This document shows positions 18,736-51,103 of a DNA stretch of 64,000 nucleotides, piece by piece (the first letter of the stretch is position 1; every line of letters starts with the position of its first letter). The stretch is from Gammaproteobacteria bacterium (GTDB lineage: Bacteria > Pseudomonadota > Gammaproteobacteria > Enterobacterales > Permianibacteraceae): assembly GCA_016182845.1 (NCBI GenBank), contig JACPFT010000005.1:310001-374000 (forward strand), written 5' to 3'. Below the pieces are notes generated by a model. The model saw only the letters and a program-made list of their open reading frames with translations. It was not told the origin of the DNA and searched no databases. The position numbers and the translations under genes are program-made.

Positions 18736-19347
18736 ATGATCAGCCAGTTACGCGGAACCCTGAAAGAAAAGCTGCCGCCGGAAATCGTCCTGGACGTGGC
18801 CGGCGTCGGCTACGAGCTACTCTGCCCCATGACCACCTTTTACCAGCTGCCCGAACTGGGCAAAGAGGTCTTGCTCCATACGCATTTGTCCATTCGCGAG
18901 GATGCTCATGTGCTGTTCGGCTTCGCCGCCAAGGCCGATCGCGCCCTGTTTCGCGAGCTGATCAAGGTTAATGGCATAGGTCCGAAACTGGCCCTGTCCA
19001 TACTCTCCGGCATGGAGCTCGCCGATTTCGTGCGCCGCGTGCATGAGGGGGAGGTGAGTGCCCTGACCAAGATCCCGGGCGTGGGTAAGAAAACCGCCGA
19101 GCGCCTGGTGGTGGAAATGAAGGACAAGCTCAAGGACTGGGAATATTTCACCGGCCGACCCCAGCTCATGAATCTTAGCCAGCCGGCGGTAGCATCGGCC
19201 GATGAGCCGGTGCAGGAAGCCGTCGCCGCCTTGGTCGCCCTGGGCTACAAACCCCAGGATGCCTCCAAGGCCATCGCGAAAATTGAACAAGCCGGCATGA
19301 AGTCCGAGGAGTTGATCCGCGCCGCCTTGAAGGCCATGGTCAAGTAA
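18736..19347 (+). CDS. ruvA: Holliday junction DNA helicase subunit RuvA
   Basis: Tetrameric junction-binding protein that loads the RuvB motor. It begins MISQLRGTLKEK; two helix-hairpin-helix motifs are visible (VNGIGPKLALSILSGM and IPGVGKKTAERLVVEMKDK), and the C-terminal RuvB-contacting helical domain is present (EAVAALVALGYKPQDASKAI). The 203 residues are normal. In most relatives ruvB follows directly; here a three-gene cassette of about 3.2 kb intervenes. Confidence 0.97.
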   Translation: MISQLRGTLKEKLPPEIVLDVAGVGYELLCPMTTFYQLPELGKEVLLHTHLSIREDAHVLFGFAAKADRALFRELIKVNGIGPKLALSILSGMELADFVRRVHEGEVSALTKIPGVGKKTAERLVVEMKDKLKDWEYFTGRPQLMNLSQPAVASADEPVQEAVAALVALGYKPQDASKAIAKIEQAGMKSEELIRAALKAMVK

Positions 19348-19425
19348 GGAAGCCGGCGGAAATAAAGCGGTGCTGGCCAATTGCCGGCAAGTGAGTTAAG
19401 TTCGGGTTTTTCGAGGTAGTGCACT

Positions 19426-20283
19426 ATGGATGGTGGAATCGTCAAGCCGGGTAGCCTGGTCATCGTTGGCTGCGGCTTACATCCGGGGCAGATGACCCTG
19501 GAGGCCAAGAGTCATATCGAGCATGCCGATGTCGTGCTGGCGGTAGTGCCCGCTCCGCTGTCCTACTACCAACTCAGCACGCTGACCACGCGCCTGGAAT
19601 CCATGACCTGCTTTTATGATGGCAGGCCGCGCCCCGAGACCTACGCCGCGATGACGGCGCGCATGGTGGAATGCGTCAAGGAAGGCAAGCAGGTCTGCGC
19701 CGTGTTCTACGGCCATCCGGGTGTGTTCGTCACGCCTAGCCATGCCGCCTTGCGCCAGCTGCGCGAGGAAGGCTATTCGGCACGCATGTTGCCGGGTATT
19801 TCCGCCGATGCCTGTTTGATCGCCGATTTGGGCGTGGATCCGGCGGAGCATGGTTGCCAGTCTTACGAAACCACGTCCTTCCTGCTGACCCAGCGTTTCC
19901 ACAATCCCGAAGCGGCGCTGATTCTGTGGCAGGTGGGGTTGGCGGGCGAGTTGAGCCTGAAGTCTTTCAAGCCGGGCCAGCATGGGCTTGATGCCTTGGT
20001 GCAAGTGCTTGGGCAATGGTATGAGCCCGAACATCGCGTTTGCCTGTACGAGGCACCGATACTGCCGACCTTCGCACCGCGCATCAGCTGGTTGTGCCTG
20101 TGCGATCTGCCGAACGCCGAATTGAAAGAATACAGCACCCTGTTCGTGCCGCCCCGAGTCCGGGCCACCTTGGTGGAAGAGCGCCTGACCTGGCTTGATG
20201 CCGAGGACGCCGATCTGCAGGCCTACGAACGTGTGCCCATGGCGGAACTCTCACCCGAGCGCTTGAGCTCCATGGGATCATGA
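19426..20283 (+). CDS. Putative split-borosin peptide alpha-N-methyltransferase
   Basis: A 285-residue tetrapyrrole-methylase-fold SAM methyltransferase. It resembles the borosin enzymes OphMA and SonM more than cobalamin or RsmI enzymes. Shared landmarks from memory of OphMA: GSLVIVGCG near residue 9, QMTLEAKSHIE, FYGHPGVFV (94-102) then PSHAAL, EGYSARMLPGISAD with CLIADLGVDP, and STLFVPP near the end. Residues matching the OphMA catalytic set appear as Tyr64, Arg69, Tyr73 and Tyr95. Unlike fungal OphMA it carries no fused core peptide; the next gene encodes a candidate substrate. Predicted function: SAM-dependent N-methylation of backbone amides in the partner peptide. It lies between ruvA and ruvB. 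Confidence 0.85.
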   Translation: MDGGIVKPGSLVIVGCGLHPGQMTLEAKSHIEHADVVLAVVPAPLSYYQLSTLTTRLESMTCFYDGRPRPETYAAMTARMVECVKEGKQVCAVFYGHPGVFVTPSHAALRQLREEGYSARMLPGISADACLIADLGVDPAEHGCQSYETTSFLLTQRFHNPEAALILWQVGLAGELSLKSFKPGQHGLDALVQVLGQWYEPEHRVCLYEAPILPTFAPRISWLCLCDLPNAELKEYSTLFVPPRVRATLVEERLTWLDAEDADLQAYERVPMAELSPERLSSMGS

Positions 20284-20333
20284 TCCAAGAACACCGTTTC
20301 CCTGTCCAATAGTGATAATAAAAGGAGCACATC

Positions 20334-20609
20334 ATGTCGAAGAAGCTGGCGGATTTCTTTCAGAAACTGTCCACAGACGCTGGATTCCTGGGGCAGTTCA
20401 ATTCGGGGGCGACACCGACCGATCTGGCGCGGAATCGCGAGGCGCTAATGAACGCGGAAGGCTTGAGCGAAGACGACAAGAATGTCGTGCGCGGGCATGA
20501 CAACGCGGCTGCTGATGCCGTGCTGCGCCGGCAACTTGGTATCCAGTTGGATGGCTGGAGTAACACCAGCAACACGAACGTCAATATTTCAAGAGTTCAA
20601 AAAGCATAG
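20334..20609 (+). CDS. Putative split-borosin precursor peptide
   Basis: A 91-residue protein with a strong AAAGGAG ribosome-binding site, 50 bp after the methyltransferase. Its N-terminal ~65 residues (LADFFQKLSTDAGFLGQF ... EALMNAEGLSEDDKNVV) follow the helical pattern of the borosin-binding domain of SonA-type precursors and the clasp region of OphMA, a fold often annotated as LigA-like or resembling Nif11 leaders. The C-terminal tail from about residue 69 (GIQLDGWSNTSNTNV and onward) lacks helix signals and is the likely core. It has no cysteine, and is rich in Asn, Ser and Thr, unusual beside the aliphatic cores of fungal borosins. Which residues would be methylated cannot be told from sequence. 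Confidence 0.8.
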   Translation: MSKKLADFFQKLSTDAGFLGQFNSGATPTDLARNREALMNAEGLSEDDKNVVRGHDNAAADAVLRRQLGIQLDGWSNTSNTNVNISRVQKA

Positions 20610-20632
20610 TTCATTATTAGCCCATTCAACGT

Positions 20633-22657
20633 ATGCACCTTATGCGGCTTTTTGGAGTATTCCTTGCGCTGATGCTTAGCTTCGCGGTATCAGCCGAGGA
20701 TACTTCCAATTCATTGATTAGTTGGGAACGCCTGGTTAATGAAGGTGGGGCCGATGCAGGGGAGGCATATTACAATCTCATAAAGTTTTTTGGCCTGACC
20801 GAGCCCAAGCGCGCGTTGAGGCATATTGCCTCGGCAGAAGCTTATTTCAAACAACATCCCAACATACATTGGCAGTCTTTGATTAAGTCGGAGCATGCAT
20901 ATGTTCTGATGTCCGACGGTCAATTGACCGAGGCCATGGCAAAGGCCCTGGAAAGTATTGAATACGCGACGCGGAATCGTGAGCCTCAGGCGTTGGCTCG
21001 GGCCATTATGAATCGTGGCAGTGTGCAATATTCGATAGGCGACTTTGAGACCGCACTTCAAAGCTACCAAGATGCCGGGAAGCGGTATGAGGTACTAGGC
21101 GACACGTTGGGCGTCTTGAGCGTTGATAAAAATATCGGAAATGTGCTTGTTCAAATGGGGCAATACGAACAGGCCGAAGCCATTTACCGGGACATTATCA
21201 AGCGCAGTCAACGAGATCCTCGTTTTGAAGGAGAGTGGGCCGTCGCAGAAGAGGGTTTGGCACGAACGCTGTCGTATATGGAGCGGTTGGATGAGTCGCT
21301 GCCTCATTTTCGAGAGTCTATCCGATTGACCGAGCGTCAACAGCAAGGCAAGGCGATGCAATATACCTTGTCGGGCATGGCCACGGTTTTGTTGAAGCTT
21401 GGAAAAAATGAAGAAGCCTTGGCAACGGTGGAACGCGCTATTGACACGATGCGGCGGGGCGAGGCCGGATTGTTCCTCGGTACGCTCTTGACGCTGAAGT
21501 CGGAAATTCTACTCGCATCGGGACGAAAGGAAGACGCACTCCTTTCCGTGCAGCAAGGATTAAGCTTTGCGGAGAGCCAAAAGGATGCATTCGGGTTATC
21601 TGCGGCTTGGGAGGCCCTATCGGTTGTTTATAAGGCTCAAGGGCAGTACCAGAGGGCGCTTGAAGCGATAATGCAGTCTCAGACGATCCGGGAGAAAATG
21701 ACAAATGAACGGGCCTTGGCCCGAGTAGCCGTTCTGGCCGCTGCTTACCAAGCCGAAAGAACTCAGCACGAAATTGACGTCCTGAATGCGAAAACCAACG
21801 CACAACAGGCAGAGCTCCAGAACCAAAGGAATCAAACCTACTTCTTGGCGACTTTGTCGCTGTTGACCTTGTGCGTGCTTGGATTCGGCCTTTACCGGAG
21901 ACATAACCAACAGATCGTCGCCGAACACCAGCGTGTCAACGACAAGCTGGTCGAATTGGACAGGGTCAAGGACCAGGTGCTGGCCAATACGTCTCATGAG
22001 CTGCGCACGCCGCTGAATGGTATCGTCGGCTTGAGCGAGCTCTTATTGTCGGATGAGTTGACGGACGAAGCGCGCAGCCATGTGCAGATGATTGCCGACA
22101 GCGGTCGGCGCTTGACCCGCCTAGTCGATGATCTGCTGGATCTGTCCAGTATGCGTCAAGGCAAGTTTGTCCTGCATCAGGCCGCCGTGGAGCTGGCGCC
22201 ATTGGTGCGCCAGGTCATCGCCCTGTCGGCATCGGCGGTGCTCGGCAGGCCGGTTCGCTTTCATAACCAGGTGCCGAATGAGCTTCCCAAGGTCTGGGCC
22301 GACAAGGAGCGGCTGCTGCAAGTCCTTCACAACCTGATAGGCAATGCCGCCAAGTTCACCGAGAAGGGAGCGGTGACGGTGAATGCCAACCTGGAAGGGG
22401 GGATGGTGCGCGTGTCGGTCGTGGATACCGGCGGCGGCATCCCGCCGGAGAAGCTGCACACCATTTTCGACGCCTTCGAACAGGCCGATTCGGGAATGAC
22501 GCGACGCCACCAGGGGGCAGGCTTGGGCCTCGCCATCGCCCGCCAACTGGTGGAACTGCATGGCGGCCAGATTGGCGTCCAGTCCACGCCGGGGACGGGC
22601 AGCCTGTTCTGGTTCACCCTGCCTCTAGCCATGGGCAAGCCCCTCGGGCAATCTTGA
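20633..22657 (+). CDS. TPR-sensor histidine kinase in the borosin cassette
   Basis: A 674-residue kinase with a signal peptide (LFGVFLALMLSFAVSA), a periplasmic tetratricopeptide-repeat region (about 40-370), a coiled coil, and one membrane segment (LATLSLLTLCVLGFGLYRR). A cytoplasmic HisKA domain (NTSHELRTPLNGIVG) and HATPase domain (HNLIGNAAKF, DTGGGIPPEK, GAGLGLAIARQL) follow. No receiver or response regulator is adjacent, so the partner is unknown. It begins 23 bp after the precursor gene, so co-transcription is likely. The 5' two-thirds is visibly poorer in G+C than neighbouring genes, suggesting separate ancestry. Starts at 20633 or 20642 are both possible. A sensor role for the RiPP pathway is inference. 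Confidence 0.85.
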   Translation: MHLMRLFGVFLALMLSFAVSAEDTSNSLISWERLVNEGGADAGEAYYNLIKFFGLTEPKRALRHIASAEAYFKQHPNIHWQSLIKSEHAYVLMSDGQLTEAMAKALESIEYATRNREPQALARAIMNRGSVQYSIGDFETALQSYQDAGKRYEVLGDTLGVLSVDKNIGNVLVQMGQYEQAEAIYRDIIKRSQRDPRFEGEWAVAEEGLARTLSYMERLDESLPHFRESIRLTERQQQGKAMQYTLSGMATVLLKLGKNEEALATVERAIDTMRRGEAGLFLGTLLTLKSEILLASGRKEDALLSVQQGLSFAESQKDAFGLSAAWEALSVVYKAQGQYQRALEAIMQSQTIREKMTNERALARVAVLAAAYQAERTQHEIDVLNAKTNAQQAELQNQRNQTYFLATLSLLTLCVLGFGLYRRHNQQIVAEHQRVNDKLVELDRVKDQVLANTSHELRTPLNGIVGLSELLLSDELTDEARSHVQMIADSGRRLTRLVDDLLDLSSMRQGKFVLHQAAVELAPLVRQVIALSASAVLGRPVRFHNQVPNELPKVWADKERLLQVLHNLIGNAAKFTEKGAVTVNANLEGGMVRVSVVDTGGGIPPEKLHTIFDAFEQADSGMTRRHQGAGLGLAIARQLVELHGGQIGVQSTPGTGSLFWFTLPLAMGKPLGQS

Positions 22658-22658
22658 C

Positions 22659-22687
22659 TTGCGTCAAGGGGTGGTCATCCCTAAACT
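22659..22687 (+). promoter_or_regulatory. Candidate promoter for ruvB
   Basis: TTGCGT and TAAACT are separated by 17 bp, ending 45 bp before the ruvB start. The match is modest, but an independent promoter is plausible because ruvB is separated from ruvA by the cassette. Confidence 0.35.
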
Positions 22688-22732
22688 ACCCGCATCTAGC
22701 GTCTAACGCCCCTCCAAACCACAAGATATCCG

Positions 22733-23743
22733 ATGATCGAAGCCGACCGGCTGGTCTCGCCCATTGCTCGCGAGAAGGAAGATGTCGTGGATCGGGCCAT
22801 CCGTCCGACCCGTTTGGCCGATTACACCGGCCAGGCACCCGTGCGCGAGCAGATGGGCATCTTCATCGATGCGGCGCGGCGCCGGGGCGATGCCCTCGAT
22901 CACGTCCTGATCTTCGGTCCGCCGGGCCTGGGCAAGACCACGCTAGCCAATATCATCGCCAATGAGATGGGGGTCGGCATCAAGCAGACCTCGGGTCCTG
23001 TCCTGGAAAAGCCCGGCGATCTGGCCGCGCTCCTAACCAACCTGGAGCCGGGCGATGTGCTCTTTGTCGATGAAATTCATCGACTTAGTCCCGTGGTCGA
23101 AGAAATCCTCTACCCCGCCATGGAGGACTACCAGCTCGACATCATGATCGGCGAGGGGCCGGCAGCCCGTTCCATCAAGCTGGATCTGCCGGCTTTCACG
23201 CTCGTTGGCGCGACGACGCGCGCCGGCATGCTCACCAGCCCCCTGCGCGACCGCTTCGGTATCCTGCAGCGCCTGGAATTCTATTCGGTGGCCGAACTGA
23301 CCACGATTGTGCAACGTTCGGCGCGTATCCTTGGCCTAAAGATGGAAGACGACGGCGCCGTGGAGATCGCGCGCCGGGCGCGGGGCACGCCGCGCATCGT
23401 CAACCGCCTGCTGCGCCGGGTCCGCGATTACGCGGAAGTGAAGGCCGACGGTCGCATCAGCGCGACCGTGGCAGCCCGCGCCCTGGATATGCTAGACGTG
23501 GACGATCAGGGCTTCGACGCCCAGGATCGGCGGCTACTGCTGGCCATCATCGACAAGTTCGACGGCGGGCCGGTGGGCGTCGAATCCCTGGCGGCCGCCA
23601 TCGGCGAGGAACGGGACACCATCGAGGACGTGATCGAGCCCTATCTGATCCAGCAGGGTTATGTGCACCGCACGCCGCGCGGCCGGGTGGCCACGTCCCG
23701 GGCCTATCTGCATTTCGGCCTGGATCGGGACGAGAAGGCATGA
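22733..23743 (+). CDS. ruvB: Holliday junction branch-migration ATPase RuvB
   Basis: Hexameric AAA+ motor for branch migration. Walker A is [15 protein letters not shown], Walker B is [10 protein letters not shown], sensor sequence is [21 protein letters not shown], and the C-terminal winged helix ends in [16 protein letters not shown]. The 336 residues match the family. Its stop overlaps the ybgC start (ATGA). Confidence 0.97.
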
Positions 23744-45538: not shown

Positions 45539-45844
45539 CAAATCGTACACGGAGCAATGTCGGCGCATTGTAGCGGAGCCTTTCTCCGCGATGAGTCCCG
45601 GAGAGAGTGTACACGACTTCCAACTGGTCAGACGGCGCTCGTTGGCTGTTTGCAACTACTTCATTTCATTTAAAAACTAGTCTATTGAACCGACGTGTCA
45701 AGGGCTTAAGCCTGCACACTTCTGCACAATTAACCGGGGGGCGCCCTATCGCGTCATGGCCTGTGACTCTGTTGAGATTCGAGAGGCCCGAAAGCTAAGT
45801 CTCGGGCAATAAATAAACAAATGTTATATCTCTCAGGAGGCCAC
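45539..45844. other. Divergent regulatory region between mipA and the protease
   Basis: About 300 bp between divergent genes. It holds the perfect 8-bp palindrome GTGTACAC (45607-45614), a partial copy CGTACAC near 45544, a CCCGA/TCGGG hairpin near 45787-45806 and an AT-rich stretch before the protease RBS. The response regulator may bind here, but no operator can be assigned. Confidence 0.45.
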
Positions 45845-48800
45845 ATGCTGCTGAAAAAGCGCGCCCTGGTCGCCGCACTCGCCGGACTGTATTCGTTCGG
45901 CGCCGGTGCTGCGGCTACCCATGCTTCCGTTTCCGACCAGCCCTTGCTCAAGGCCGCGGATTTGTCCGCCGAGGCCGTGGAGAGCATGAAGCGTTCGCAC
46001 GCGGTCAAGCGCGTGCCGACCGGTGGTCGCGAAATGGTGGGCGTAAACCGTCATTTGGGAACCCCCAGCGCCAAGACCAAGTATGTCCGCGCAGCCGACG
46101 AATCCGGTATCCAGACCTATATCGTGCGCTTGAAGGGGCAGCCTTCAGCGCTGTACGACGGCTCGATTTCCGGCCTCAAGGCCACGTCGCCGCGTTTCCG
46201 CGACGGGGCCGAGACCAAGCTGCTGGCCTCCAACAAGCTGGTCACCACACCGGGCAAGCCGGATAGCGCACTCAATGCCTATCGCAGCTACCTGAAGTCG
46301 CAGCAGAGCGGCTTCCTGTCCAAGGCCACGGCCACGCTGGGCGCCTTCGAGCTGCGCCATCAGATGACCGACGCCATCAATGCCATCACCGTGCGCATGA
46401 CCCCGGAACAGGCCGAGCGCATGGCCAAGATGGGCGAGGTTGTCCAGATCCAGCGCAGCAAGACCTACCAGTTGCACACCGATGTCGGTCCTCAGCACAT
46501 CGGCGCCGCTCAAATCTGGGACGGCAGCGTGACGAAGGACAATCTGCCCTACCAGGGCGAAGGTGTGCTGGTCGGCGTCATCGATACCGGCATCAACACC
46601 GACCATCGGTCCTTCAAGGCCACGGGCGACGACGGCTACGCGGTGCAGAACCCGCTGGGCAGCGGCAACTACCTGGGCGATTGCGCCAAGGCCGAGTTCG
46701 CCGCGCTATGCAACGACAAGCTGATCGGCGTGCGCAGCTACGAGGCCGTCACGGATACCTATGACGACGACGAGTTCCAGGATCCGAACAAGCCCTGGTG
46801 GGAGCCGAATGTCCTCATCCGTCCCAAGAACGGCGAGGACTATGCCGGCCATGGCAGCCACACCGCCAGCACCGCCGCCGGCAACGTCGTGACCGACGTG
46901 CCCTATGTGGGCATGAGCATAGGCGCGGGCGACGGCGAGCCGACCGGCTTCAGCATGGGCCGCGTGTCCGGCGTCGCGCCCCACGCCAACGTCGTCGCCT
47001 ACCAGGTCTGCTATCCGGTGGGCGGCTGCCCTGGCGAGGCCATCCTGGCGGGTATCGAGGATGCCGTGAGGGACGGCGTCGATGTCATCAACTTCTCCAT
47101 CGGCGGCATGGAGTCCTTCCCCTGGGAAGACGCCTTCGAAATGGCCTTCCTGGCTGCCCGCGAGGCGAATATCGCCGTGGCGGTGTCCGCCGGCAACTCC
47201 GGCCCTGGCGCCATGACCACCGACCACAGCTCGCCCTGGCTGCTGTCCGTGGCGGCGGCTAGCAACGAGCGCATCGTGTCGGTGACCGGCAAGAGCCTGA
47301 CCGGCCTGTCCGGCGGCGACACCACGCCGCCGGAGACGCTCAGCGGCAAGGGCATCTCCGGTTCCATCACCGGCGACATCGTGCTGGCCAGCAACTACGG
47401 CGACGAGCTGTGCCTGAACGACTTCCCGGCCGGTACCTTCACGGCCAACCAGATCGTGGTCTGCAAGCGCGGCGAGAATGCCCGCGTCGAGAAGGCGGTG
47501 CATGTCAAGGCCGGCGGCGCCGGCGGCTTCGTGCTCTACAACGCCGTTCCCTGGGGCGAAGGCTCGGAGATGATCGACGACGTCTATGCCCTGCCGGGCA
47601 TCCAGCTCGACCATTACAGCGGCACCAGCCTCGTGACCTGGCTGAGCAGCGGCACGGGCCACCAGGGCGCGATCACTACCGCCGATATCGCCAAGACCCC
47701 GGTCCAGGCCGATATCGTGGCCAGTTTCTCCTCGCGCGGTCCGGCGGCGACCTATGACGGCCATATCACGCCCTCGGTCGGCGCGCCCGGCACCCATATC
47801 TACGCGGCCTATGCCGACGAGCATCCCTTCGACGCCGGCGGCGGCCTGTCGGCGGACTGGAGCATGCTCCAGGGCACGTCCATGGCCAGCCCTCATGTGG
47901 CCGGCGCCATGGCGCTGCTGCGCCAGGCCCACCCGGACTGGACGGCGGCGGAAGTGCAGTCGGCCCTGCAATCCACCGCGACGCCGGCCATGACCAAGCC
48001 CTTCGAGTGGTCGGATATCACGCCCGCGGGCCTGTACGATGCCGGCTTCGGCATCATCAACGTCGCCAAGGCGGTCCAGGCCGGCCTGGTGTTCGACGAG
48101 AAGGGCGAGAACTACCGCGCTGCCAATCCCAACGAGGGCGGCCGTCCCTCCCAGTTGAACGCCCCGGAACTGGTGGATCTGCACTGCGCGGGCGGCGCCT
48201 GCACCTTCGTGCGTAGCGTGCGCGCCACCCGCGACGGGACCTGGACCGCGACCGTCAGCACCGAGGAACTGGCCGCCAAGGCCGAGGTCCTGCCCGCGCA
48301 GTTCAGCCTGAAGGCCGGCCAGACCCAGAACATCGTGGTCAAGGTCGACGTCAAGGACCTCACCGCCCTGGGTTCCGGCGGTATCGGCGGTTCCGCCGGC
48401 AAGGAGATCCACGGCTTGGTCAAGCTGACCCCGGCCGATGCCTCCATGCCCGAGCAGCGCATGCCCATGGTCTTCGCCGTGGAGCAGGGCTCGATGCCCC
48501 TGACGGTCAATCTGACCGGCCACGCGGATAGCGGCCGCCAGGTGTTGAAGGACATCGGCGGCCCGGCCATCAGCGCGCTGACCACCCGGACCTATGCCCT
48601 GACCGCGCCCCTGGTGGACGAGGAAATCAGCCTGAAGCAGCCGGACGACTACCGCACGCCTTTCCAGCGCGACAACGTCACCGAGCAGCCCGAGACCTTC
48701 AAGATCTACTGGGTGGACGTACCGGAGGACGCCAAGCGCCTGGTGGCCGAGATTGGCTCGCGCAGCAAGTCCGAGGGCTACAAGGAGGCATGGGAGCGCG

Positions 48801-51103
48801 GCGACGCCGACGTCGTGATCGGCTTTGACGCCAACGGCGACGGCGAGGTCCAGCCCCAGGCCGAGGGCATCTGCATCTCGACCTCGGAGTTCGACAACGA
48901 CTTCTGCAATATCAACAAGCCGGAAGCTGGCCGTTACTGGGTCATCGTCTACAACTTCCAGCACTGGGGCTATCAGATCCCGACCGACACCTACCCGGTG
49001 CGCATCGCCGTGGTCGGCTCGGCGTCCGAGCCGCGCCTCGGCGTGAGCGGTCCCGCGTCCACGGACGGCATCAACAAGTTCGATCTGACCGTGAACTGGG
49101 ACGTGCCGGAACTGGCCCAGGGCAAGACCCTGTTCGGCGGCTTCGATGTCGGCACCGACGCCGGCAATCCGGGCAACCTGGGCTTCGTGCCGGTCAAGCT
49201 GACCCGCGGCGTCGACGGGCTGAGCCTGGCCACCAGCCAGAGTGCGGCCAAGGTCGGCGACGTCATCGACTTCCGCGTGCACCTGCTGGAAAACACCAGC
49301 GGCGCGGCCCGCGATGTCGAGCTGGCGGCGACCCTGCCCGAGGGCCTGAGCCTCGTGCCCGGCTCGGTGAAGCTGAAGTCCGCCCTGGCCGACAAGCTGA
49401 CGGTGGACGGTTCGACGATTTCCCTGGCCTATAGCCAGGAGGACTCCTCGACCTGGAAGCCGGCCTACGCGGTCACGACCAGCCAGACCGACGCCCAGTG
49501 CCGCACGCCGGACTTCGGCCCCTACACCTATGCCAACGGCGGTGCCGACGGCGGCTACGTGGAACTCGACAAGTTCGGCATCGAGGCCAGCCCGGTCTTG
49601 AGCGGCACGGGCTACCAGGAGCCGCTGCGTTACCCGCTCTCGGCCCTGTTCGGCGACGACACCAAGCTCGCGCTGTTCAATAACTTTGCCTACGCGTCTT
49701 TCGACAGCTTCTCCATCGCCACCGGCGGCTGGTTACAGATCGACACGCAGCCGAAGTTCTTCAACGACTATGCCCAGTTCCCGTACTTCAGCTTCAGTCT
49801 GCCCTATGTCATGGTGGCCGGCCTGTGGCGTGAGAGCAGCTTCCTCAAGAACCGCGTGATGGGCACGCCCTATGTCAACGACTGGTTCGCGGGCGAGTTC
49901 TCTGGCGTCAGTCTCGCGGGCGGCACGGCCGAGTACCGCGACGGTGAACTGGTTCCGTCCAAGCACGTCATCGTCGACTGGCGCGGTTCGCGTAGCCAGG
50001 AAGTCGTCGGCTACGACTGGATGACCGGCGAGTTCAGCATGGACGACAAGGACGACCGCTTCCGTTTCCAGGTCATCATGAACCCGGACTATCGCTTCGG
50101 CGATGACGAACCGGAAATCGTCATGGCTTACCACAGCGTCGAGTTCGGCGGCGAGGGCGAGTGGGGGTCCGTCGGCCTGAACGGCTATGCCGGCGGCTTC
50201 GGCGGCTTCGGCCCGGTCGAGGGCACGTCCGGCGTCAGTTTCGCCTTCGACGATCTGAGCAAGAAGCTCAGTAACGGTCTCGTGGTCTGCTACGACTATG
50301 TCGGCCCGGAATCCACCCAGGTGGACATCCGTTTCCAGGCGCGCGTCAACGACAGTGCTTCGGGCGAGGCCCAGGTGGTCAGCCTGACGCACAACATCGC
50401 GGGCGTATCGGAACAGTCCGTCACCAAGTCCATCACCGTCAACGGCAACCTCAAGCTGGCCGGCTGGGATGACCAGGTGATCGACGAGGACGAAGCCCTG
50501 GAAGGCCTGATGCTCGCCTACACCGATCTGGATACCGGCGCCAACACCGTGACCGTCTCCGGTGAGCACATCACCGGCGTCGTGCATGGCCACAGTGCCG
50601 GTTCGAGCTTCGATGTCATCCCGGATGTGGACTTCAACGGCGAGACCACCGTCACGGTGACCGTCGCCGACAACCTGCACCCGAACGACAAGAGCGCCCA
50701 GAGCTTCAAGCTGACGGTGAACCCGAAGGCCGATGCCCCGACCGCCGCCGTGAAGGCGTCGGCCCTGAGCATCACCCAGGGCCAGAGCGCCACGCTGGAC
50801 GGCAGCAACTCGCTGAACCCGGACGGCGACGCGACCATCACCTGGACCGGCCCGGGCAGCATCGCCAGTGCCAATGCCCTGGTGACTCAAGTCTCCGGTC
50901 TGAGCGTCGGCAGCCACGAGTTCACCCTGACCCTGGCCAACGGGGAAGGCACGAGCTCGGCCAAGGTGGTCGTGACCGTCAATGCCGCCTCGATGCCGGC
51001 GCCGACTCCGGCTCCGTCCTCGGGCGGCGGCGGTGGCGGCTCCTTCCCGCTGCTGGGCCTGGTGCTCCTGCCCCTGCTGGCCCTGCGCCGCAAGCCGGAG
51101 TGA
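45845..51103 (+). CDS. Giant S8 subtilisin-type protease with GlyGly-CTERM tail
   Basis: A 1752-residue secreted protease. It has a signal peptide (KRALVAALAGLYSFGAGAAA), an I9-type propeptide (TYIVRLKGQPSALYDG), and a peptidase S8 domain with catalytic Asp247 in GVIDTGINTDH, His336 in GHGSHTAST and Ser679 in GTSMASPHVAGAM. A protease-associated domain is inserted between His and Ser (about 500-595). A long C-terminal region (about 700-1690) has Fn3-like, cadherin-like and PKD-like segments. The C-terminus has Pro-rich linker, SSGGGGGGSFPLLGL, a hydrophobic helix and RRKPE: a GlyGly-CTERM sorting signal processed by rhombosortase. The ATG at 45845 follows AGGAGG. Divergent from the two-component operon, which may regulate it. 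Confidence 0.94.
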   Translation: MLLKKRALVAALAGLYSFGAGAAATHASVSDQPLLKAADLSAEAVESMKRSHAVKRVPTGGREMVGVNRHLGTPSAKTKYVRAADESGIQTYIVRLKGQPSALYDGSISGLKATSPRFRDGAETKLLASNKLVTTPGKPDSALNAYRSYLKSQQSGFLSKATATLGAFELRHQMTDAINAITVRMTPEQAERMAKMGEVVQIQRSKTYQLHTDVGPQHIGAAQIWDGSVTKDNLPYQGEGVLVGVIDTGINTDHRSFKATGDDGYAVQNPLGSGNYLGDCAKAEFAALCNDKLIGVRSYEAVTDTYDDDEFQDPNKPWWEPNVLIRPKNGEDYAGHGSHTASTAAGNVVTDVPYVGMSIGAGDGEPTGFSMGRVSGVAPHANVVAYQVCYPVGGCPGEAILAGIEDAVRDGVDVINFSIGGMESFPWEDAFEMAFLAAREANIAVAVSAGNSGPGAMTTDHSSPWLLSVAAASNERIVSVTGKSLTGLSGGDTTPPETLSGKGISGSITGDIVLASNYGDELCLNDFPAGTFTANQIVVCKRGENARVEKAVHVKAGGAGGFVLYNAVPWGEGSEMIDDVYALPGIQLDHYSGTSLVTWLSSGTGHQGAITTADIAKTPVQADIVASFSSRGPAATYDGHITPSVGAPGTHIYAAYADEHPFDAGGGLSADWSMLQGTSMASPHVAGAMALLRQAHPDWTAAEVQSALQSTATPAMTKPFEWSDITPAGLYDAGFGIINVAKAVQAGLVFDEKGENYRAANPNEGGRPSQLNAPELVDLHCAGGACTFVRSVRATRDGTWTATVSTEELAAKAEVLPAQFSLKAGQTQNIVVKVDVKDLTALGSGGIGGSAGKEIHGLVKLTPADASMPEQRMPMVFAVEQGSMPLTVNLTGHADSGRQVLKDIGGPAISALTTRTYALTAPLVDEEISLKQPDDYRTPFQRDNVTEQPETFKIYWVDVPEDAKRLVAEIGSRSKSEGYKEAWERGDADVVIGFDANGDGEVQPQAEGICISTSEFDNDFCNINKPEAGRYWVIVYNFQHWGYQIPTDTYPVRIAVVGSASEPRLGVSGPASTDGINKFDLTVNWDVPELAQGKTLFGGFDVGTDAGNPGNLGFVPVKLTRGVDGLSLATSQSAAKVGDVIDFRVHLLENTSGAARDVELAATLPEGLSLVPGSVKLKSALADKLTVDGSTISLAYSQEDSSTWKPAYAVTTSQTDAQCRTPDFGPYTYANGGADGGYVELDKFGIEASPVLSGTGYQEPLRYPLSALFGDDTKLALFNNFAYASFDSFSIATGGWLQIDTQPKFFNDYAQFPYFSFSLPYVMVAGLWRESSFLKNRVMGTPYVNDWFAGEFSGVSLAGGTAEYRDGELVPSKHVIVDWRGSRSQEVVGYDWMTGEFSMDDKDDRFRFQVIMNPDYRFGDDEPEIVMAYHSVEFGGEGEWGSVGLNGYAGGFGGFGPVEGTSGVSFAFDDLSKKLSNGLVVCYDYVGPESTQVDIRFQARVNDSASGEAQVVSLTHNIAGVSEQSVTKSITVNGNLKLAGWDDQVIDEDEALEGLMLAYTDLDTGANTVTVSGEHITGVVHGHSAGSSFDVIPDVDFNGETTVTVTVADNLHPNDKSAQSFKLTVNPKADAPTAAVKASALSITQGQSATLDGSNSLNPDGDATITWTGPGSIASANALVTQVSGLSVGSHEFTLTLANGEGTSSAKVVVTVNAASMPAPTPAPSSGGGGGGSFPLLGLVLLPLLALRRKPE

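Follow-up and report, generated by a model that had tools for sequence, protein, structure and literature searches.

A split-borosin gene pair with an Asn-rich predicted core adjoins a TPR sensor kinase and may serve in signalling

Results

A three-gene cassette between ruvA and ruvB

The analysed stretch of 64,000 nucleotides (hereafter the window, in which all coordinates of its features are given) contains a cassette of three genes on the forward strand, encoding a borosin-type methyltransferase, a separate precursor peptide and a sensor histidine kinase with a TPR domain. We explain the cassette as a three-gene split-borosin system, probably with a role in signalling, and give this explanation as a whole a probability of about 0.6.

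The cassette (19348–22732) separates ruvA (18736–19347) from ruvB (22733–23743). The precursor ORF follows the methyltransferase gene on the same strand after a gap of exactly 50 bp, and the sensor kinase ORF follows after another 23 bp. The first-pass annotation had described the enzyme and the precursor, and this pair stood; its reading was incomplete in that it ended before the third gene. Among the window ORFs, no immunity, transport, exporter or protease gene was found in the cassette, between ruvA and ruvB, and promoter and terminator scans gave results at chance level. The G+C content is 55.6% in the sensor gene and 59.1% in the enzyme–precursor pair, versus 63.6% in the window. The lower G+C of the cassette and the split between ruvA and ruvB may reflect horizontal arrival. 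Elsewhere, the window encodes a subtilase-family protein that is very long, at 1760 aa (45821–51103).

The methyltransferase

The first gene (19426–20283, +) encodes a borosin-type peptide backbone alpha-N-methyltransferase of 285 aa, which contains the three motifs FYGHPGVFV, EGYSARMLPGISAD and STLFVPP reported previously. Among PDB sequences its best matches were SonM chains (E 1.5e-57), followed by OphMA, dbOphMA and MroMA (about 1e-42 to 1e-48), while uroporphyrinogen and precorrin methylases matched at 6.5e-5 and worse. The proposed active-site pattern Tyr64/Arg69/Tyr73/Tyr95 aligned with Y58/R67/Y71/Y93 of SonM, mutants of which have lowered or abolished activity, and F101, W168, Q169, E148 and E175 of the window enzyme correspond to the SonM lock residues F99, W166, Q167, E146 and E173. 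The roles of these active-site and lock residues have been established for SonM (PMC8429565). Across 46 aligned enzymes, the equivalents of SonM R67, Y71, Y93, F99, E146, W166 and Q167 were invariant, that of Y58 was Tyr except in three cyanobacterial rows, and that of E173 was Glu in the window enzyme.

Membership of a shared superfamily (Pfam TP_methylase, 5e-17) would also suit an ordinary tetrapyrrole or RsmI-type methylase standing beside an unrelated small ORF. However, the best full-length matches were of the SonM/OphMA type and not RsmI or cobalamin methylases, SonM ranked ahead of any tetrapyrrole methylase by about fifty orders of magnitude, and the NCBIfam cobalamin and siroheme models all scored far under their cut-offs. 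Profile comparisons also place a precursor with a borosin binding domain (BBD) next door, whereas neither a BBD nor a TPR sensor was seen at two siroheme-synthase-type TP-methylase paralogue loci that served as controls. We therefore rejected the ordinary methylase, which is hardly credible here.

The precursor and its leader

The predicted ORF of 91 residues lies at 20334–20609 (+), behind the ribosome-binding site AAGGAG (20322–20327). It is not a chance ORF: in Bowmanella, Lacimicrobium, Planctobacterium, Kangiellaceae and two genomes of the source family, close homologues of the methyltransferase are directly followed by a homologue of the precursor. Within the source genome, a search with the precursor returned only itself and one match at chance level, and Pfam and NCBIfam models gave no match.

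As had been anticipated, the structure model combines a helical N-terminal part with a flexible tail: it has five helices (residues 3–14, 16–22, 28–41, 46–56 and 59–75) and, from residue 71 on, a tail modelled with low confidence. From these predicted helices and alignment A4 we assigned residues 1–66 (20334–20531) to the leader with the BBD. This boundary is approximate, as the last helix extends past residue 66. The SonA-type nature of the leader, also suggested earlier, was borne out through profiles. A profile of 12 precursor relatives had SonA chains as its best PDB matches (E 0.008), a second profile, built from precursors that accompany more distant enzymes, matched SonA at 5.5e-18, and the two profiles matched each other over the leader with a probability of 96.4 and E 1e-9. 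Since the single-sequence phmmer search of the PDB reached SonA only at a non-significant E of 1.1, the BBD homology is drawn from these chained comparisons and not from the window sequence by itself. Foldseek comparison of the precursor model with PDB and viral structures gave nothing significant; among the PDB rows, all with E >5, a Nif11 RiPP leader came first and a borosin methyltransferase seventh.

The pair thus has the features of a type IV split borosin, namely an enzyme of the SonM/OphMA family with the active-site residues, an adjoining separate precursor and, via profiles, a BBD. An aliphatic core as in SonA, which is usual in split borosins but does not define them, is missing from the window precursor. 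We regard the assignment of enzyme and precursor to a split-borosin pair as highly probable.

An Asn-rich core marks one clade

The Asn/Ser/Thr-rich core, which the first-pass annotation had singled out as unusual, proved to belong to a wider type: polar tails that are rich in Asn and share an invariant Trp are the hallmark of a single clade with strong support. In alignment A4, Trp75 was invariant in 12 sequences and was followed by an Asn-rich tail; Asn made up 22% of the residues after the Trp, against 7% before it. This combination occurs in Alteromonadaceae, Kangiellaceae and the source family. The tail reads W-x-G-L-x(4)-N-x-D-N-K-x-N-I in Bowmanella, Lacimicrobium and Planctobacterium, and QWNNNANNNTNNNIG in one genome of the source family. 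The window tail (SNTSNTNVNIS) is a divergent member of the type, with four Asn, three Ser and two Thr in 16 residues. In locus L012 the unit NYAGNTDNT occurs twice, like the repeats of multi-core precursors. In a methyltransferase tree that included SonM, the enzymes beside Asn-tail precursors formed a single clade (15/15 rows, support 100/98).

Alignment A4, the tail duplication in L012 and the Asn content together suggest a core region at residues 69–91 (20538–20606; GIQLDGWSNTSNTNVNISRVQKA), whose extent is a prediction. By analogy with SonM, this tail is very likely to be the methylated part of the precursor.

The sensor kinase

The third gene (20633–22657, +) encodes a protein of 674 aa with Pfam matches to TPR_12 (5.7e-23), HisKA (1.8e-20) and HATPase_c (7.1e-30). 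Hydropathy indicates a signal-peptide-like N-terminal hydrophobic segment (residues 3–21; 20639–20695) and a transmembrane segment (residues 402–420; 21836–21892). In between, Pfam and model helices place a TPR domain at about residues 80–340 (20870–21652), in a region modelled with high confidence as helices (residues 42–335). The HisKA phosphoacceptor domain, with the motif SHELRTPLNG, lies at 21968–22162 and the catalytic HATPase_c domain at 22301–22630. With the phosphoacceptor His, the HATPase_c domain and the membrane segment, the protein has the make-up of a membrane sensor histidine kinase. Most likely, the TPR domain is periplasmic and the histidine kinase cytosolic. In Foldseek searches the model resembled solved kinase regions, GacS first, a result that reflects mainly the kinase domain and is silent on the ligand of the TPR domain.

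Co-inheritance of enzyme and sensor

The 80 nearest named loci include 46 from Gammaproteobacteria. In 38 of these 46, the gene for a TPR sensor with a kinase or GGDEF output lies no more than 1.2 kb away on the same strand as the enzyme gene; several of the other eight were cut by contig ends. We compared 31 genes, that of the window included, at the same place relative to the enzyme. TPR_12 was found in 27/31, GGDEF in 16/31 and HisKA with HATPase_c in 14/31, so that 30/31 carried a GGDEF or HisKA/HATPase output domain, and all 31 had a membrane segment at residues 346–425 by hydropathy. The loci of Bowmanella and Lacimicrobium add a gene for a receiver-GGDEF protein. Because only four places in the source genome are similar to the TPR half of the window sensor, adjacency of enzyme and sensor by chance is very unlikely, as a rough estimate and not a formal test. 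One TPR kinase of the source genome (L122) has no borosin enzyme adjoining.

The TPR halves of the Asn-clade sensors also formed one clade (97/98), in a tree with long branches, and distances between TPR halves correlated with those between methyltransferases (Mantel r 0.85, 0/999 permutations), although such agreement can arise from linkage without interaction. One genome (G002) contains both an Asn-type cassette (L005) and another cassette (L007), each of which keeps its own sensor type; species history alone does not explain this. In three loci (L073, L080 and L091), TPR, GGDEF and methyltransferase occur in a single ORF. The ORFs of L073 and L091 carry borosin methyltransferase matches themselves, with Pfam matches to GGDEF plus TP_methylase for L073, whereas L080 was judged from its length and the overlap of the enzyme match. 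These ORFs of ~838 aa (+; L073, 4240–6756; L080, about 4273; L091, 4237) have a BBD ORF just upstream.

Regulators are common in RiPP clusters. The N-methylated peptide could accordingly have an outward job (antimicrobial, metal binding or membrane activity), in which case the sensor would do no more than control the operon or detect some unrelated signal. The TPR part is indeed fast evolving (best identity 24% for the window sensor), and the sensor outputs vary between kinase and GGDEF. We nevertheless consider this reading unlikely: the one-ORF TPR-GGDEF-methyltransferase proteins and the TPR neighbours found in several phyla suit a tighter connection than a usual cluster regulator would have, and genes for immunity, transport and proteolysis are absent between ruvA and ruvB.

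The one-ORF proteins, which join enzyme and sensor in three genomes, could instead suit a methylated precursor that stays whole in the cytosol, acting as a small regulatory protein on the kinase or the enzyme, with methylation as a protein switch. The lack of a protease or exporter in the cassette is in line with this, as is the lack of a hydrophobic signal segment in the hydropathy profile of the precursor. However, the TPR half that tracks the enzyme is most likely across the membrane, and a multi-core precursor elsewhere in the source genome suits peptide release. We judge a purely cytosolic regulator quite improbable and retain signalling by the peptide through the sensor as our reading.

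Other loci

The multi-core precursor belongs to a second split-borosin locus of the source genome, on contig C14 (L002, about 821–2403, −; L128, 6362–7944, −). Its enzyme is 45% identical. In its precursor, about ten repeats of 10 residues (DAAIIKGYA), encoded by a 30-bp tandem array, come after a BBD. No sensor adjoins this locus.

Outside the Gammaproteobacteria, the methyltransferase has other TPR neighbours: a TPR protein plus a Ser/Thr kinase-AAA protein in cyanobacterial loci, a BTAD-NB-ARC-TPR activator in Chloroflexota loci, a Ser/Thr kinase-TPR protein in an acidobacterial locus and a cyclase-AAA-TPR protein in an alphaproteobacterial locus. Non-gammaproteobacterial loci with TPR neighbours bearing kinase, STAND or cyclase domains are L020, L030, L042, L085, L022 and L019. 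These neighbours support the link, but are suggestive only, as some of these groups commonly encode TPR proteins.

Several further arrangements were observed. In L134 (4137–5778), two overlapping tandem borosin enzymes precede one precursor and one sensor. The L134 cassette adjoins a metK-like gene, and the L133 cassette has metE- and metF-like genes nearby. In contigs labelled Thermoplasmata (archaeal MAGs; L054, L075), a methyltransferase of the borosin type has a neighbour that is BBD-like. L040, L058 and L090, where the enzymes form a related clade, encode short putative precursors whose tails are acidic (DDDDNVPSEEP) and whose leaders had no match to the BBD profile.

Discussion

Comparison with known systems

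The closest characterized system is SonM/SonA of Shewanella oneidensis, a type IV split borosin (PMC8429565). It shares with the window the separate enzyme and precursor, the same active-site and lock residues, and a precursor in which a helical BBD leader precedes the C-terminal tail. In contrast to SonA, whose core is aliphatic, the window precursor has a polar core with Trp and an Asn-rich make-up, behind a leader that is ~9 residues longer, and the side clamp of the window enzyme is short (6 residues versus 10 in SonM). A related locus of Shewanella waksmanii likewise has a sensor gene downstream, of the TPR-GGDEF type, whereas the window sensor has a histidine kinase output. The fused fungal borosins OphMA, dbOphMA and MroMA have a homologous methyltransferase domain (about 1e-44), but their hydrophobic cores are fused to the enzyme. 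We know of no sensor gene with these fungal borosins.

Bacterial borosins with a GGDEF-containing domain are already known, according to the Figure 1 legend of PMC11395268. As that legend presents them, they share the link between borosin enzyme and GGDEF signalling, and the one-ORF proteins of L073, L080 and L091 may be of this kind; the window differs from them in its separate, kinase-type sensor and its Asn-rich core. Our literature search, which covered work outside the main split-borosin surveys, returned no description of the Asn-rich core clade or of the TPR-kinase association, and none joining borosins with TPR sensors; SO1478/SO1479 appeared in the SonM paper only. Hence, split borosins and, in part, their GGDEF link are known, and the variant with Asn-rich core and kinase is apparently new; we claim it only as a variant.

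The RRNPPA receptors of Firmicutes are cytoplasmic TPR receptors for peptides from short genes (PMC9765709). They resemble the window, by analogy only, in pairing a TPR protein with a short peptide gene. In the window, by contrast, the TPR domain forms part of a membrane kinase, with a signal-like N terminus before it and a membrane segment after it by hydropathy, and the peptide is probably N-methylated. The relation between TPR and peptide seen in the window operon is one of co-inheritance.

Proposed mechanism

In the mechanism that we propose, the methyltransferase, probably a dimer like SonM, would bind the separate precursor through its helical leader, and the C-terminal tail would thread the active site. 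Methylation would affect at least one backbone amide in the stretch around Trp75 and beyond it. The methylated peptide, whole or cleaved, would then most likely serve as a ligand or regulator of the TPR sensor, which would relay the signal by phosphotransfer; the recipient in the nearest named relatives would apparently be a receiver-GGDEF protein. Methylation and its positions, export or cleavage, and the binding of peptide to TPR are steps that we infer. The action through the sensor is proposed because of the co-inheritance, the one-ORF fusions and the precedent of peptide binding by TPR receptors of the RRNPPA type (PMC9765709). Topology is the weakest point: the enzyme is cytosolic and the TPR half probably periplasmic, and the route of the peptide is unexplained by any exporter or protease nearby. 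The TPR sensor may also sense something other than the peptide.

We read the cassette as a new split-borosin subfamily; whether its peptide works in signalling through the co-inherited sensor is in our estimation evenly balanced. The broader idea that backbone N-methylated peptides are a signal class of Gram-negative bacteria, with an Asn-rich peptide sensed by a TPR kinase or diguanylate cyclase and swappable outputs, is tentative, and we lean against it.

Implications

No type IV borosin pathway had been tied to a final natural product in the paper that defined split borosins (PMC8429565). A pair that is inherited with a TPR sensor, and joined with it in one ORF in three genomes, turns the purpose of split borosins into a concrete genetic and binding question: a signalling role for these product-less peptides is directly testable through the sensor kinase that travels with them. 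The Asn-rich core clade also raises the question whether borosin enzymes methylate polar, Asn-flanked amides. If they do, borosin enzymes would find wider use as peptide-modifying tools.
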